Source of the DNA: Candidatus Zhuqueibacterota bacterium
Lineage (GTDB): Bacteria > SM23-31
Direction: 5' to 3'
Length of the DNA: 6,116 nucleotides
NCBI GenBank assembly: GCA_022562855.1
Contig: JADFON010000122.1
Coordinates: 1 to 6,116 of the forward strand
In this document: piece by piece, positions 1 to 6,116 of the stretch
Position numbering within the stretch: position 1 is the first letter of the stretch
Layout of the letters: every line of letters begins with the position of its first letter
Made by a program: the position numbers and the translations under genes
Notes under the pieces: model-generated
Told to the model about the DNA's origin: nothing
The model's input: the letters and a program-made list of their open reading frames with translations, nothing else
The model's database searches: none

Positions 1-64
1 CCATTATGTTTTCCATTGCGTTGTCTATGGCATTCAAAAACGGATTGATAAATTCGGCTTTCAT
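1..64 (-). CDS. cheX: CheY-P phosphatase CheX (N-terminal fragment, cut by window edge)
   Basis: An ATG at 62-64 opens a frame running off the left edge. The 21 visible codons read MKAEFINPFLNAIDNAMENI and then M. The opening M-K-A-E-(F/Y)-I-N-P-F is the typical CheX start. GGAG lies six bases upstream (71-74), confirming the start. CheX is a CheC-family phosphatase that dephosphorylates CheY-P through an ExxN motif, which lies beyond the window. Its position 34 bases after cheY agrees with that role. The call rests on a short but characteristic N-terminus and on context. Confidence 0.82.
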   Translation of the reverse strand, partial: MKAEFINPFLNAIDNAMENIM

Positions 65-98: not shown

Positions 99-458
99 TT
101 ATGCCTCGATAGTAGCCTTGACCTTTTCAATCAGGGTTTCTTTATCGAATGGCTTTACAATATAGTTATTTACACCCATTTTCAGAGCTTCAACGACTTC
201 TGTTTTGGCGCCTTCAGTTGTAATCATAACAATAGGAATATCTGCATATAGGGAATTACTTCTTAATTCTTTTACGAATGTGATACCATCCATCTCAGGC
301 ATATTCCAATCGGTCAAAACAAGTTCTATGCCTTCCATATTGCTTAATCCCTCAAGACCGTTACCGGCTTCCACGATATCATCAAAACCTGCAGTTTTCA
401 GACTATTGATAATTATTCTCCGCATGGTTACCGAGTCGTCTACAACTAAAACTTTCAT
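99..458 (-). CDS. cheY: Chemotaxis response regulator CheY
   Basis: CheY is the diffusible receiver that carries phosphate from CheA to the flagellar motor switch. The 119-residue product is a single receiver with D7-D8 in VVDDS, phosphoacceptor D50 in LTDWNMPEMDG, T80 in MITTEG, Y99 in NNYIVKPF and K102. The Trp after the phosphoacceptor and the Tyr before VKPF match positions important in classical CheY, separating it from the other free receiver in the cluster. A GAGGT about eight bases before the ATG supports the start. It follows the kinase by 54 bases, the widest gap in the cluster, and precedes cheX by 34 bases. The cheY-cheX order fits CheX acting as its phosphatase. A kinase-partner role for a separate phosphorelay cannot be excluded, since cheA is not visible. 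Confidence 0.94.
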   Translation of the reverse strand: MKVLVVDDSVTMRRIIINSLKTAGFDDIVEAGNGLEGLSNMEGIELVLTDWNMPEMDGITFVKELRSNSLYADIPIVMITTEGAKTEVVEALKMGVNNYIVKPFDKETLIEKVKATIEA

Positions 459-512: not shown

Positions 513-2279
513 TTATTCCAGAAATTCGTCAGCCTTTTTGAATTCCACTTTAAACGAGGCGCCAGTTTCATCGGATTTTTCAACAAATAAATTTCCTTGT
601 TGCAAGGAAATCAATTCACTGCACATATATAGACCTAATCCTGTTCCCGATGAAGACGCATACTCGGTATCGTTATCCCTGATTTTCGTTGTGAAATATG
701 CCTCAAATATTCTCGGCAGGATCTTTTCCGGTATACCTCTTCCATTATCGGAAACAGAAAACCAGACCTTGTCGTCATCGACTCCCGTTTTGATTTTAAT
801 TGTGGGATTTGGCAAACCGTATACAGCATCGATACCATTTTTTACAAGATTTTGAAGTACTTGAGAAATATATGACGGCACTACATTGGTTAGTAATTCT
901 TTATCAGAGAAATCGAAAATCAGGTTTACATTTTTGTTATACCATTTATTGACATCAAGAAATCCAATTTCATCCCGTAGAAGTTCGTTTAGTTCGATTA
1001 CTTCAAATTCTTCGCTCTGAATAAACCTGCTTTTATTCATAAGAGAGTTTATCATGTCGATAAACCTCTCAATGCAGTCAAGGTTCGAGTTTAACCGCTT
1101 AGATAATTTTTGCAATGCCGGTTTATTGTTTCCCAGCAGAGTTTTAGGATTGTTTTTTTCCTTCAAAAGAAGCCCATCAAGGTCAAGCCGCATCAATTGT
1201 GCATAGCCGAGTATCCCCGATATTTGATTATTCATGTTATGGACAATTCCCTGAACATTTTTTCCAAATAAAGCCTGTCTTTCGTATTTCATCAGGTTAG
1301 CGGTCTGTTCCCGCAGCAATTGCTCCATAATATTTTTTTTGATAAGAAAGTCTTTTTTTGCATTGATAATACTCAAATGTGTAGCAATTCTAAAGACTAT
1401 TTCATCGGGATGTAAATCGCTTGACAAAAAATCCACGCTTCCTGATTTAAAACCAATTTGCTTAAAATCCCGGTCGAATTCAGGTGTAACAAAAATTACA
1501 GGAATCTGAGACAATTTGGAATTACTTTTCAGGGATTTACAAAACTCAATACCACCGTTGTCATTTTTGTCAACCGCTAACAAAACAAGATCGGGATTGT
1601 TTTGTTCCACAAATTCAGTGGACCCGTTCTTTTTGACGGCATAGGTCACATTATAACCCCGGTCTGAAAGAACCACTTCGAGAAACTGTGCAGAGGCATT
1701 TGAATCATCCACTATCAAGATATTGTTTGTATTATCAAGCGGTTCCTCTCCGCCGTCGGCGCTATCTGAAAATAGTCCATCGGGAATCAACGCCTCTCCG
1801 GGAACCGGCGATTTGCTCTCAATAGTAAAAACTATTTTCCTGTCATCTATTCCAAATAAAACGATTAATGAGTCATTGGATAATTCAGGAGCATTACTTT
1901 GGTCCCCGTTTTTGAGAGGAACCGGAACTCCGAGCTTCACGACGTCATCACCATCCAGTAATTTAGTCGCAAATTGTCCCGCAATTGCATTGGAGCACTC
2001 GGAAACAAAATCTTCTATAATTGTATCAAGATTATTTTTATCATACTCGCCATATAACATATCAACTAATTCCGACGCATGATCTTTTTCAAAATAAAGC
2101 CGGATCTTCAATTCATGAGGTTCAATGATTTCGATAGTCGAAGCCACCGACTCCTTTGTCCATTCAGGAAGTGAACCACACATTTCCTTTTCCGTTACTT
2201 CAGCAAAAAGCATCGTTTCGAATGTTTTGGATACCGCATCCTGCAGTTTTTCAAAGAATTCTTCATTATTTATGTTCAT
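513..2279 (-). CDS. Soluble hybrid histidine kinase: CheX-like domain, degenerate receiver, HisKA-like and HATPase domains
   Basis: The 588-residue cytoplasmic protein has no membrane segment. Residues about 1-160 resemble the CheX/CheC phosphatase fold, with E94-C-S-N97 followed by AIAG in the place of the ExxN catalytic dyad of CheX. Residues 186-300 form a receiver that starts with D191-D192, but A235 replaces the phosphoacceptor Asp and S287 replaces the conserved Lys, so it is a pseudo-receiver. A helical, probably coiled-coil linker spans about 303-340. The phosphorylation box has H347 in IVHNMNNQISGILGYAQL, with Asn at H+1 instead of Glu/Asp and N351 at H+4. The ATPase domain is complete: N-box N477/N481, G1 DNGRGIP at 511-517, F-box FEAYFTTK at 525-532 and G2 GTGLGL at 545-550. 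AGGA seven bases upstream supports the ATG. It lies between the free receiver and cheY, its likely phosphotransfer partners by context. Confidence 0.92.
   Translation of the reverse strand: MNINNEEFFEKLQDAVSKTFETMLFAEVTEKEMCGSLPEWTKESVASTIEIIEPHELKIRLYFEKDHASELVDMLYGEYDKNNLDTIIEDFVSECSNAIAGQFATKLLDGDDVVKLGVPVPLKNGDQSNAPELSNDSLIVLFGIDDRKIVFTIESKSPVPGEALIPDGLFSDSADGGEEPLDNTNNILIVDDSNASAQFLEVVLSDRGYNVTYAVKKNGSTEFVEQNNPDLVLLAVDKNDNGGIEFCKSLKSNSKLSQIPVIFVTPEFDRDFKQIGFKSGSVDFLSSDLHPDEIVFRIATHLSIINAKKDFLIKKNIMEQLLREQTANLMKYERQALFGKNVQGIVHNMNNQISGILGYAQLMRLDLDGLLLKEKNNPKTLLGNNKPALQKLSKRLNSNLDCIERFIDMINSLMNKSRFIQSEEFEVIELNELLRDEIGFLDVNKWYNKNVNLIFDFSDKELLTNVVPSYISQVLQNLVKNGIDAVYGLPNPTIKIKTGVDDDKVWFSVSDNGRGIPEKILPRIFEAYFTTKIRDNDTEYASSSGTGLGLYMCSELISLQQGNLFVEKSDETGASFKVEFKKADEFLE
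591..611. repeat. Perfect 9-bp inverted repeat with 3-base loop inside the kinase 3' end
   Basis: Positions 591-599 (ATTTCCTTG) pair exactly with 603-611 (CAAGGAAAT) across a three-base loop. It lies within kinase codons for roughly S-L-Q-Q-G-N, about 75 bases before the stop. It has no poly-U tail and so is not a normal terminator. It may be a chance result of codons or a small mRNA hairpin ahead of cheY. Confidence 0.5.
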
Positions 2280-2291
2280 TCGCTGTTCCTG

Positions 2292-2669
2292 TTAATTATT
2301 GTAAACAGTCTTTACGGTTTTGTCCAATGCCATTGGCGACAAAGGTTTATTGAGTACAGCGGAAGCGCCTAACGAAATTAGTTTTGATTCGTAGGCGGGA
2401 TTGGCTATGCTGCTAATCACAATGATGGGAATTGTCCGAAATTTGTCGGATTGACGGGTATTGATCACCAGTTCCTCACCATCCATTTCAGGCATAACCA
2501 AATCTGTCAAAATCAAGTCTATTTCGTTATCTTTTAACAAGTCAAGCGCCTCAACTCCATTAGCAGCTTCGAAATAAACAACACCCTCGTAACCGCCCAT
2601 CGAAAGACACTTTCGAATTACCATTCGTGAAGTTGCAGAATCATCCACGATTAAAATGTTCTTAGGCAT
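2292..2669 (-). CDS. Stand-alone receiver-domain response regulator (CheY-like)
   Basis: This is a single-domain phosphoreceiver with no DNA-binding or enzymatic output region. From the ATG at 2667-2669 it is 125 residues. It has the acidic pair D9-D10 in LIVDDS, phosphoacceptor D56 in LTDLVMPEMDG, the switch S86 in VISS and K108 in NKPLSP, so it should accept phosphate. It has Leu rather than the Trp found after the phosphoacceptor in the cheY product here, and residues after the switch Ser also differ, so it is probably not the motor-binding CheY. An adjacent ATG at 2670-2672 is possible, but the AGGAG is only three bases from it and six from the second. The start overlaps the HDOD stop, and the kinase gene begins only 12 bases after its stop. 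It is the natural partner of one or both neighbours. Confidence 0.94.
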   Translation of the reverse strand: MPKNILIVDDSATSRMVIRKCLSMGGYEGVVYFEAANGVEALDLLKDNEIDLILTDLVMPEMDGEELVINTRQSDKFRTIPIIVISSIANPAYESKLISLGASAVLNKPLSPMALDKTVKTVYNN

Positions 2670-3558
2670 CATTTTCTCCTGCCCCCTTATTTTCGGGGTC
2701 TAAATTGAAAAAAAACTTCTGAATTTCTTCATATTCCAATTCTATCGATATATAGAGATTTGATATATCGTTATCATTTAGTTTTAAAATATCTGAAGCT
2801 GTTGAATCAAGCCTATATGCCATTGAGTCAAACCCGGTTCCGAATCCCCCGAGCATAGCCATTATATCTCCGAAATGCACCATCGCACAAATTAGTTTGT
2901 GCTTCTCCGGTGCCGCCCCTGGATTGTGATGAAAACGAATAGCTGCTTGAAGAGTATCCGGAAAATTCCATTTGTTCGCCAGCATGTATCCCACTTCTGC
3001 ATGATTCGTTCTCAGTATATTCGATTCTACTGAGGGGAAATCCATCTCGATTCCTATCTTGTATTTTTCATTTAAATCACTGTCGTAGTTGGCAAGAAAT
3101 TCACTGATAATCACCTTGCCTATATCGAGCAATAATCCCGCCGTATAAACAACATCGGAGACTTCATACTTATTTGCCATTTGAGCAATTTGTCTTGACG
3201 CTATAGCGGTTCTCAAGGAGTGATTCCATAACCCGTTTTCTTCACATAAATACCCCTTAAGCGGATTGGAAAACATTTGACCGAAGCTTTGCTTAATGAC
3301 TATACCGAGTATTCCCCTGTTTCCAAGAAAATTGACCGCCCTGTCTATTGAAGTGACGGGTTTGCCCAGTCCAAATGAGGCGGAATTAACTACTTGCAGA
3401 CAACGGGTAGACAATGCAATATCTAATGAAACCAGCTTTATCAGATCCTTTACTGCATAATCGGAATTCGATATGAGATTCAAGATACGAACGGTGTTTG
3501 ATGAAATCGAAGGCATCGTACTTACGCGGTCTGTTATTTGTTGAAGTGTATTTTTCAT
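2662..3558 (-). CDS. HDOD domain signalling protein
   Basis: HDOD proteins are HD-superfamily relatives that usually lack phosphohydrolase activity and act as signalling scaffolds or outputs near receivers and diguanylate cyclase systems. From the ATG at 3556-3558 the product is 298 residues, a usual single-domain size. Typical signatures include the N-terminal VSTMPSISS segment, LVSLDIALSTRCLQVVNSASFG (about 42-63), W-N-H at about 111-113, AGLLLDIGK (about 140-148) and NHAEVGYMLANKWNFP (about 185-200) followed by HH at 210-211. In the HD-like position the His is replaced by Leu (L144-D145), so hydrolysis is unlikely. A TTG at 3565-3567 could add three residues. Neither start has a convincing Shine-Dalgarno, so the start is uncertain. 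The gene ends inside the next gene's start region, pointing to coupled translation with the free receiver, a likely partner. Confidence 0.93.
   Translation of the reverse strand: MKNTLQQITDRVSTMPSISSNTVRILNLISNSDYAVKDLIKLVSLDIALSTRCLQVVNSASFGLGKPVTSIDRAVNFLGNRGILGIVIKQSFGQMFSNPLKGYLCEENGLWNHSLRTAIASRQIAQMANKYEVSDVVYTAGLLLDIGKVIISEFLANYDSDLNEKYKIGIEMDFPSVESNILRTNHAEVGYMLANKWNFPDTLQAAIRFHHNPGAAPEKHKLICAMVHFGDIMAMLGGFGTGFDSMAYRLDSTASDILKLNDNDISNLYISIELEYEEIQKFFFNLDPENKGAGENDA
2676..2680 (-). promoter_or_regulatory. Shine-Dalgarno deciding the receiver gene start
   Basis: Minus-strand AGGAG lies six bases before the ATG at 2667-2669 and three before the ATG at 2670-2672, which favours the second of the tandem ATGs. 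The site lies inside the 3' end of the HDOD reading frame, as expected for coupled translation. Confidence 0.65.
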
Positions 3559-3596
3559 TTTGATCAATTATTTGGCAAATCGATTCTATCGCAAAA

Positions 3597-4247
3597 TTAC
3601 TGCTGTAAACCTTCTCCTGCTTGCAGAATCTGCCTTTTTAGATCATTCAATTGATTTTTTGCCGTAGCCCGTAGCTGAAAATCGAAATTATCGGCAATAA
3701 CTTTAATATCCCGGTGCAGGCTTTTCAGATCGGTTGTCTGTTTATTTTCCAGTCTCGGTTGAATTATAAATAAGGTCGAAAAATTATCCCGGTTATACTG
3801 GTTAACAGAGACTTTCCATGTATTTTCCAAATGTTTTTTGACCAAGAAACTGATCAAATACTGCGATATGAGATCAGGATAAACGACTGATGGGGAATAA
3901 AACCAAACCTGGGGAAGTTTGCCGATATATCCTTCATTATCAAGGTGACCTTCGCACGACCAGCAAGGTTGTACAATCCTGGATGCCGTCAGCGCATAAA
4001 CAAGAGGTAAAATGTTTTTTTCAATAGGATAATTGACCGGATCGGACGATAATTGTTTTGGAGCAAGCGAACAGTCTGCCGAACACATACAGCAGCAAAA
4101 TTGTGATTTTAGTTCGCACGTGCACGTATCTTTGCAATTGACGCAAGGTCTTACTTCTTTGTCGGTCGGCATACTTAACATTTCAAGAATATCATTTTTG
4201 CGGCGATCAAAATATTTTTCTCTTTCAAAAAAATATTCGATATACAT
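3597..4247 (-). CDS. Cysteine-rich soluble protein of unknown function, putative metal-binding
   Basis: I do not recognise a named family. The 216-residue protein has no signal peptide or membrane segment. A dense cysteine block at 35-59 holds C35, C38, C42, C44, C51, C52, C53, C55 and C59. A second motif, C95-W-S-C98-E-G-H101, follows. The middle (about 105-160) has an aromatic VWFYSP stretch and looks like an alpha/beta fold. The tail (about 170-212) is charged and probably helical. Eleven cysteines in CxxC-like spacing suggest zinc or iron-sulfur binding; this is inference. The CxxCxxH pattern is not a CxxCH heme c site. A full GGAGGTGA Shine-Dalgarno upstream makes the ATG at 4245-4247 the clear start. 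Flanking genes are the four-helix membrane protein upstream and the HDOD gene downstream, so a chemotaxis or redox-sensing role is plausible only by context. Confidence 0.82.
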   Translation of the reverse strand: MYIEYFFEREKYFDRRKNDILEMLSMPTDKEVRPCVNCKDTCTCELKSQFCCCMCSADCSLAPKQLSSDPVNYPIEKNILPLVYALTASRIVQPCWSCEGHLDNEGYIGKLPQVWFYSPSVVYPDLISQYLISFLVKKHLENTWKVSVNQYNRDNFSTLFIIQPRLENKQTTDLKSLHRDIKVIADNFDFQLRATAKNQLNDLKRQILQAGEGLQQ

Positions 4248-4285: not shown

Positions 4286-4654
4286 TTATCCAATCGGCTG
4301 GATAAAATATGACGTTACAAAACTAAGCAATCGGAAGCCTGCGTATAGGGAAATGCCAACAACATGTTGTGTCCTTCCCTTATCGACAGATAGTAATCGA
4401 CATCCGAAGAATAGCATAAAAAAGTAGATCAAGATTACAAAAGTGGAAACAATAATATGCACCATGATAACCGGAGACAAGGGTTTACCTACTATGGATT
4501 CCACCACTGATCTGTTCATTTCAATAAAAATGACAAACAACATATCGATTGTTAAGGCGCACATAATCAACGGAATGTGTATATTAGGACGGCGACGGTA
4601 AAAGATCGACGCCGCTATTGCCAGTATCACAAAAATTGTTATTATTACACTCAT
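4286..4654 (-). CDS. Small four-helix integral membrane protein, DUF420-like, function unknown
   Basis: This 122-residue protein is almost entirely membrane. Hydrophobic segments lie at about 2-19, 26-46, 62-84 and 95-118. A basic RRR cluster at 20-22 follows helix 1 and a short DKGR turn precedes helix 4. There is one histidine near the start of each of helices 2, 3 and 4 (H26, H66, H97), and an acidic residue, E45, at the end of helix 2. The layout recalls DUF420-type four-helix proteins with membrane-edge histidines, but this comparison is from memory and the assignment is tentative. AGGA seven bases upstream supports the ATG at 4652-4654. The gene sits 42 bases after cheD and 38 bases before the cysteine-rich gene, and so appears to share their transcript. 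A sensory or redox/heme role is possible but unproven. It has no chemoreceptor signalling domain. Confidence 0.8.
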   Translation of the reverse strand: MSVIITIFVILAIAASIFYRRRPNIHIPLIMCALTIDMLFVIFIEMNRSVVESIVGKPLSPVIMVHIIVSTFVILIYFFMLFFGCRLLSVDKGRTQHVVGISLYAGFRLLSFVTSYFIQPIG

Positions 4655-4696: not shown

Positions 4697-5185
4697 TCAG
4701 ACTTCCCAGTTACCTCTACCGGCGCTTGAAATCATAACTTTACCGGTATTAATCTCTATCGCAGCAGTTCTTGGTAATGAACCTCCGACATCTTCAGCCT
4801 GCAAACCCAATCCGTATTTCCAGAGGAGCTTTTTTGTCGCAAGTATATTTCTTTTTCCGATATCAAATAAACTATTCGGATCCATCACCTTTGCACCGCC
4901 TACTAATTTGATTATAAGATTCTTAGCATGACCGTTTAGACCTTCTTTTTTCATTTGCTTAAATAATGCCGGGATGCCGGTATCGGCAAAGTAACCCGGT
5001 CTTTTTTGTATCATATCCGGTCTAATTTTTGATTCGGGCAATGCAATATGAACCATACCTCCAACTTTGGTTACAGGATCATACATTATCAAAGCCACAC
5101 ATGAGCCGAGAGAATATGTTTTGATGACAGCACCGGTGTCGTGAGAAGCGCCATACTCCCCCACACCCAATACTATTTCTTTCAT
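4697..5185 (-). CDS. cheD: Chemoreceptor glutamine deamidase CheD
   Basis: CheD hydrolyses specific receptor glutamine side chains to glutamate in the cytoplasm, tuning chemoreceptor output. In organisms with CheC-family phosphatases it can also bind them. The 162-residue length is normal for the family. The expected Cys-His-Thr active site is visible: T23 in IKTYSLGSC, C29 in LGSC and H46 in GGMVHIALP. The family glycines in LVGGAKV (about 93-99) and DVGGSLPR (about 132-139) are also present. The ATG at 5183-5185 overlaps the cheB stop by four bases. A GGAG eight bases upstream, inside the end of cheB, supports this start. No cheC is visible; the CheC-family members here are the cheX start at the left edge and the CheX-like domain of the kinase. 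Any CheD partnership with those is inference. Confidence 0.97.
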   Translation of the reverse strand: MKEIVLGVGEYGASHDTGAVIKTYSLGSCVALIMYDPVTKVGGMVHIALPESKIRPDMIQKRPGYFADTGIPALFKQMKKEGLNGHAKNLIIKLVGGAKVMDPNSLFDIGKRNILATKKLLWKYGLGLQAEDVGGSLPRTAAIEINTGKVMISSAGRGNWEV

Positions 5186-6116
5186 GCCGCTTTCTCCGCC
5201 AACAGTCTTAACGTTTCTTCCGCTATATCCTCTAAAGGCAACAATCGTTGAGCGCCGCCATTCTTGTATGCTTCTTTCGGCATTCCAAAAACTACCGACG
5301 TTTTCTCGTCCTGTGCCATAGTTTTTGCCCCTGCCTGCCTCATAGAAAGCATCCCCTCCGACCCGTCGCGTCCCATCCCTGTCAATATAATGCCAATTGC
5401 ATTTGCGCCAACATATTTTGCGACTGAATTCATCATAACTTCTACCGACGGTCTATGACCGCAGACTTTCTCTCCTTCCGAACAAACTACCTGGTATATC
5501 CCGCCCGAACGCTTGATCGTCAGATGCATATCTCCAGGAGCAATCAAGACCCTCCCCGACATTACCCTGTCATTGGTTTTCGCCTCTTCGACAACCATCT
5601 CGCACTCGTTGTTGAGGCGGTCTGCAAACATCTTGGTGAACACGGGCGGCATATGCTGAACTATTACCACTCCCGGCATCGAAGGAGGAAACCGTGTAAT
5701 CACTTTCCGTATTGCTTCGGTGCCTCCCGTCGAAGCGCCAATTGCAATTACTTTGTCTGTAGATTCCGCCAGCGCCGAGCTTTTAAAGACCGGATCCGGA
5801 TCCGAAGAAGTTTTACTTTTCTTCCATGATGATACGTTAGCGATCGAGGCGATTTTAACTTTCGTTCTCAGCTCCATTATCATACTGCCAAGACCGCGCG
5901 CAATATCGGTGCTCGGTTTGGAAGCAAAATCCACGGCGCCGGCTTCCAACGCGTCAAGCGTAATCTGTTTTCCTTTCTGCGTCAAAGAACTCACCATAAC
6001 CACCGGTATCGGGTTCTGCGGCATAAGTCTCCTGAGAAATTCGACCCCGTCCATTCTCGGCATTTCAACATCGAGGGTCAGCCCATCCGGTTTATCTTTA
6101 TTTATCTTATCCATTG
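5182..6116 (-). CDS. cheB: Chemotaxis response regulator, protein-glutamate methylesterase/glutaminase CheB (5' partial)
   Basis: CheB demethylates receptor glutamyl methyl esters, and can deamidate receptor glutamines, when its receiver is phosphorylated by CheA. The window edge removes roughly the first 40 to 45 residues, including the acidic pair that opens the receiver. The ATG at 6112-6114 is internal because it falls inside the receiver fold, just before the phosphoacceptor strand. Counting from that Met, the receiver shows D15 in LTLDVEMPRMDG, S42 and K66 in SKPS. A Ser- and Lys-rich linker covers about 88-118. The esterase domain runs from about 120 to 305 with the Ser-His-Asp triad in place: S128 in GASTGG, H154 in VQHMPP and D250 in TGMGRDG. 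The stop overlaps the cheD start as ATGA, which suggests translational coupling. The family assignment is secure; only the N-terminus is unseen. Confidence 0.97.
   Translation of the reverse strand, partial: MDKINKDKPDGLTLDVEMPRMDGVEFLRRLMPQNPIPVVMVSSLTQKGKQITLDALEAGAVDFASKPSTDIARGLGSMIMELRTKVKIASIANVSSWKKSKTSSDPDPVFKSSALAESTDKVIAIGASTGGTEAIRKVITRFPPSMPGVVIVQHMPPVFTKMFADRLNNECEMVVEEAKTNDRVMSGRVLIAPGDMHLTIKRSGGIYQVVCSEGEKVCGHRPSVEVMMNSVAKYVGANAIGIILTGMGRDGSEGMLSMRQAGAKTMAQDEKTSVVFGMPKEAYKNGGAQRLLPLEDIAEETLRLLAEKAA

Follow-up and report, generated by a model that had tools for sequence, protein, structure and literature searches.

What does a CheX phosphatase domain do at the head of a histidine kinase-type protein? 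The question is raised by a single open frame of 588 codons (513..2279) in the window, by which we mean the whole stretch of 6,116 nucleotides analysed here; all the features of the window described below lie on its minus strand. The initial annotation had recognised a CheX domain fused to a kinase in this frame, and the fusion itself stands. The layout was incomplete, in that a receiver-like domain at residues 187–297, between the CheX domain and the kinase core, had been missed, and the protein reads, from its N-terminus, as CheX, pseudoreceiver and HisKA-type histidine kinase core.

An AGGA ribosome-binding-like site stands 5′ of the ATG of this frame. The CheX domain occupies residues 1–155 (1815..2279), as assigned by PF13690, by a profile match to CheX structures and by a phylogenetic tree, and is followed in the translation by an acidic linker rich in proline and glycine (residues 156–186; 1722..1814). 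The degenerate receiver (1389..1721) is assigned by PF00072, which gives 53 bits for the whole protein. The HisKA-like dimerisation and phospho-histidine region (residues 342–418; 1026..1256) is assigned by motif, the PF00512 match of 16.5 bits being below the curated cut-off of 26.9, and the HATPase_c domain (residues 470–582; 534..872), with its N, G1, F and G2 boxes, matches PF02518 with an E-value of 4e-22. Within the linker, TTG codon 164 (window 1786–1800) has CGGAGAGGCG just 5′ of it and, to judge by this context, is a possible internal start for a pseudoreceiver-kinase protein devoid of CheX.

Identity of the CheX Domain

The initial annotation took residues 1–160 to be a CheX domain with an intact pair of catalytic residues, E94 and N97, and proposed a profile search against Pfam. 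That search gives a significant match: PF13690 covers residues 45–142 and scores 42.4 bits (E 7e-11), where the cut-off is 27. The two residues are found in the translation at exactly those positions, in a complete catalytic signature, D90-x3-E94-x2-N97-x3-G101 followed by P119 (1977..2012, in one predicted helix). These five residues are invariant in an alignment of six CheX proteins, and the five positions are kept in 36/36 aligned CheX proteins, that of the window included, which takes the CheX identity well beyond chance; the initial assignment of the domain is thus borne out.

As a single query, the domain is divergent and its matches are weak, the best being to the CheX of B. burgdorferi (E 0.07). 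A profile built on the six CheX sequences aligned above, one of them the window's, matches the whole set of known CheX structures (1xko, E 2e-16; 3hzh_B, 2e-16; 3iic, 6e-32), and E94 and N97 align with the E and N of both B. burgdorferi and T. maritima CheX. In an AF2 model built on three sequences and of low confidence (pLDDT 54, pTM 0.50), D90, E94 and N97 lie on a helix spanning residues 81–107, where E94 is one turn from N97. A Foldseek search with this low-confidence model gave no significant match (E above 0.1). The re-alignment of structures by VIA, again with the low-confidence model, gave eight best rows that are all CheX, with Z scores of 5.6–6.7, which, being under 8, are not decisive, just as other folds missing from the VIA list prove nothing.

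With the CheX phosphatases (PF13690), such as those of T. maritima (1xko/1squ) and B. burgdorferi (3hzh, a CheX-CheY-BeF3 structure), the domain has in common the family profile, the ExxN motif with its D and P and, probably, the fold. Those proteins are stand-alone CheX, whereas the CheX of the window forms the N-terminus of a kinase-type chain. The CheX domain of the 588-aa protein most likely removes phosphate from a receiver; the water that attacks would be positioned by E94 and N97, as it is in the CheX proteins already characterised.

Other CheX Fusions

The search for the CheX family covered 386 genomes, 130 of which had a match, and was accompanied by searches for CheX subfamilies. No other joining of CheX to a HisKA-type core was found among the long frames examined and the matches listed, for 574 genomes across the searches, and no second copy of the CheX-pseudoreceiver-kinase architecture was seen in the genomes searched. 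The contigs of named genomes gave no close relative when scanned with the single protein, and two relatives when searched with a two-sequence alignment; the viral contigs searched gave none. CheX was seen joined to FapA (L048, 4837–8268), to a REC-PAS-GGDEF-EAL protein (L051, 2309–5026) and to receivers (L053, L144). In view of these partners, CheX is a mobile module.

The CheA-CheC/CheX fusions of the Leptospirae, for which a dual kinase/phosphatase role has been proposed (PMC10542144), and the protein in the window both join a CheX-type phosphatase to a histidine kinase; the idea of such a dual role is consequently not new. One protein that resembles these published fusions was found in L052 (2524–4908); it is CheA-like, with the layout Hpt-HATPase-CheX, and a receiver gene comes after it. 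However, the Leptospirae fusions are based on CheA (F1 class), whereas the core in the window is HisKA-like, and Pfam found neither Hpt nor CheW in the 588-aa protein at E-values up to 1. Unlike the CheA fusions, moreover, the window's protein has its CheX at the N-terminus, with a pseudoreceiver intervening. A literature search on the CheX domain with a kinase, on the CheX-like domain and on HDOD with CheX found nothing. As a variant of signalling components already known, the fusion is genuine but modest.

The Che Operon and the Origin of the Fused CheX

Directly upstream of the fusion gene lies a free receiver (REC, 2292..2672) in which Asp and Lys are intact, and before it an HDOD protein (2662..3567; PF08668, E 6e-49) in a position that is conserved before REC-CheX. 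The operon also contains cheD (4697..5185; PF03975, E 9e-26) and cheB (5182..6114; PF01339, E 6e-64), the 5′ end of which is cut by the contig edge, the profile match in its receiver part starting only at position 36. On the other side of the fusion gene is cheY (99..458), a receiver with Asp and Lys intact, and then a stand-alone cheX (2..64), which runs off the contig after its first 21 codons. The initial annotation had placed the start of such a gene at the left edge, and nucleotides 64–2 do encode MKAEFINPFLNAIDNAMENIM, which is like the MKIEYINPFLNAVDNAMETMI of contig C72.

Two further genes belong to the operon. One (3597–4247) encodes a Cys-rich protein of 216 aa (CVNCKDTCTCELKSQFCCCMCSADC, CWSCEGH) for which there is no Pfam or NCBIfam match and which possibly binds metal. 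The other (4286–4654) encodes a probable membrane protein of 122 aa with only a sub-threshold match to DUF420.

Contig C72, which belongs to the same genome, carries a second cheY-cheX pair (L047, 2620–3501). The pair appears to have been duplicated, since the CheY of C72 is 82% identical to that of the window.

The order HDOD-REC-CheX-CheY-CheX is found in four genomes of another phylum (L136, L138, L139 and L140), and recurs in the window, where the CheX-pseudoreceiver-kinase takes the place of the first stand-alone CheX. The operon does contain CheX twice, as a gene and as a domain, as the initial annotation had pointed out, but this is ordinary: all four of these genomes likewise carry two, so that two CheX activities are the rule in that group. 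The order cheB-cheD-HDOD-REC-CheX occurs, with variations, in L043, Desulfosudis oleivorans (L109), L132 and L134, and cheD-REC-CheX in L133 and L135. In the CheX tree, the fused domain pairs with an orphan CheX from a genome of the same family (97/94) and groups with the CheX of the che-block operons on one side of a branch (90/82, present in 88% of bootstrap trees), while the CheY-linked CheX of C72 (L047) branches elsewhere. Gene order accounts for the fusion: in the history that we prefer, the CheX of a conserved block, cheB-cheD-...-HDOD-REC-CheX-CheY-CheX, gained a C-terminal pseudoreceiver and a HisKA-type core in this lineage.

The Partner Receiver and the Pseudoreceiver

When compared with the receivers placed before CheX, or fused to it, in most blocks, the free REC of the window shows 41–48% identity (35.5% for L043); with CheY proteins it shows 31–35%. 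REC and CheX are adjacent genes in most related operons and, in L144 (1453–2352), they form one protein of 299 aa, the CheX domain of which scores 26.3, just under the Pfam cut-off of 27. The receiver of L144 is the closest to that of the window among those compared (47.6%). Such a natural REC-CheX fusion gives good grounds for thinking that the two work as a pair. On the strength of this adjacency and of the single protein in L144, the partner of the fused CheX is most likely the 2292–2672 receiver. The substrate could instead be CheY (99–458), or both receivers. The single-chain REC-CheX proteins (L144 and L053) thus have in common with the window's protein a receiver and a CheX in one chain; they differ in lacking the kinase part and, in the case of L144, in having an intact receiver where the window has a pseudoreceiver.

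Could the CheX domain act on the receiver within its own chain? PF00072 receivers that can be phosphorylated have an Asp acceptor and a conserved Lys, which in the pseudoreceiver are Ala235 and Ser287; the acid pair is retained. Every other receiver in the alignment has both Asp and Lys, Ala and Ser being found in the pseudoreceiver only. With Ala for Asp and Ser for Lys, the pseudoreceiver cannot be the target of CheX, and an intramolecular dephosphorylation is ruled out by the absence of the phospho-Asp. The domain is probably a regulatory or dimerisation piece. The FrzS protein is an example of a receiver without Asp (PMC1974792).

The Kinase Core

The H-box of the core reads H347 N348 M349 N350 N351 (HNMNN). 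The HE[I/L]NNP-type HisKA kinases, such as NtrB and CrdS, have the same box layout, with the phospho-His, an Asn at H+4 and the ATP-binding boxes. However, the NtrB/CrdS type has Glu or Asp at H+1, where the window has Asn, in addition to its N-terminal CheX and pseudoreceiver. The acidic H+1 residue on which kinase activity depends in the HisKA kinases studied is therefore missing (Asn348), while the phosphatase residue, Asn351 at H+4, is retained in this HisKA-type core. In CrdS, changes of E372 to A, D, G or Q each abolished kinase activity but not phosphatase activity; equivalent changes to Ala in HK853, HK4262 and HK1190 likewise abolished the kinase but not the phosphatase activity, and the H+4 Asn is needed for phosphatase activity only in the HisKA kinases studied (PMC3510030). 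Among the recognisable kinase H-boxes listed for the phylum, which is represented by six genomes, Asn at H+1 is unique to the window, the others having Glu or Asp. The kinase half of the protein may, on such residues, mainly remove phosphate.

When 241 genomes were scanned by pattern, 21/241 had the HN form and 146/241 the HE/HD form. Most of the HN matches fall in kinases with recognisable ATP-binding boxes. Histidine kinases of this kind, in which the phospho-His is part of HN instead of HE/HD, turn up repeatedly in bacteria (L086–L106), and this implies that Asn at H+1 is tolerated by evolution. Asn348 may thus be tolerated by the core of the window too. A loss of kinase activity was considered as a firm claim and, in view of the many HN boxes in kinases with intact ATP boxes, reduced to a lean: the H-box residues incline the core slightly towards a phosphatase or a sensor. 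A second HN site in the same genome (C208, L107) was rejected as a chance match in an antisense frame of 56 residues. Two short proteins (L091, 955–1818; L092, 955–1935), from two genomes of one family, have an HNLNNPL box and no recognisable ATP-binding boxes; L092 shares its contig with CheX genes.

These results support only in part the claim of the initial annotation that one protein might both phosphorylate and dephosphorylate the same receiver: an intact CheX is indeed fused to a kinase core, but the internal receiver is without Asp and Lys, and H+1 is Asn. In a true bifunctional enzyme, an active core would add phosphate to the free receiver or to CheY, the CheX would take it off again, and the one protein would give fast turnover. 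This is unlikely, if by no means negligible. The phospho-acceptor H347 is present and the ATP-binding boxes are all intact (NLVKNGIDA, DNGRGIP, YFTTK and GTGLGL), as would be expected of this sequence if phosphotransfer were still under selection; HN kinases with such boxes recur, and the dual role proposed for the Leptospirae CheA-CheC/CheX (PMC10542144), together with the CheA-like L052 and its receiver gene, is in keeping with it. Against it are the Asn at the very position where substitutions killed the kinase activity of CrdS, HK853, HK4262 and HK1190 (PMC3510030) and a HisKA match that falls under the Pfam cut-off.

Mode of Action

The explanation that we prefer, to which we give a little less than an even chance, is that the CheX of the block, with the core it would have gained, acts in trans. 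The CheX domain would remove phosphate from the free receiver (2292–2672), and the kinase core would dimerise the protein and dock the same receiver. With Asn at H+1 and the phosphatase Asn at H+4, this core would lean to dephosphorylation or sensing over strong phosphorylation, and the pseudoreceiver, unable to carry phosphate, would serve regulation or dimerisation. The possibility of a natural two-site phosphatase, in which CheX would be fused through an Asp-less receiver to a kinase-dead HisKA core with its own phosphatase residue, so that two sites of different mechanism in one chain would bear on the same free receiver, is distinctly unlikely.

Alternatively, CheX might mainly dock to and sense the phosphorylated receiver and relay its state to the core, with catalysis being secondary. 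The Asp-less receiver and the altered H-box resemble those of repurposed kinases such as DivL (PMC4211667), which reads DivK~P, and of Asp-less receivers such as FrzS (PMC1974792). However, the whole D-E-N-G-P signature is kept, which is beyond what binding alone needs, and the idea is quite improbable. That two separate genes were joined by an error of sequencing or assembly is scarcely credible: the source is a draft MAG (491 contigs, 79.6% complete), the architecture was seen in a single copy and codon 164 offers a possible TTG start, but 588 codons run in frame and stop-free, with an acidic linker, and the 82% identity of the window's CheY to that of C72 shows that the contig belongs to the lineage of that genome.

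If the preferred explanation, CheX acting in trans on the 2292–2672 receiver, is true, gene order and one natural REC-CheX fusion would pinpoint the substrate of a CheX within a kinase-type protein, and the dual kinase/phosphatase role proposed for CheX-kinase fusions would become directly testable. The kinase partner that CheX acquired would then be a HisKA-type core of the ordinary sort and not CheA, and the role of this core may have been swapped from that of a kinase to that of a phosphatase or sensor.
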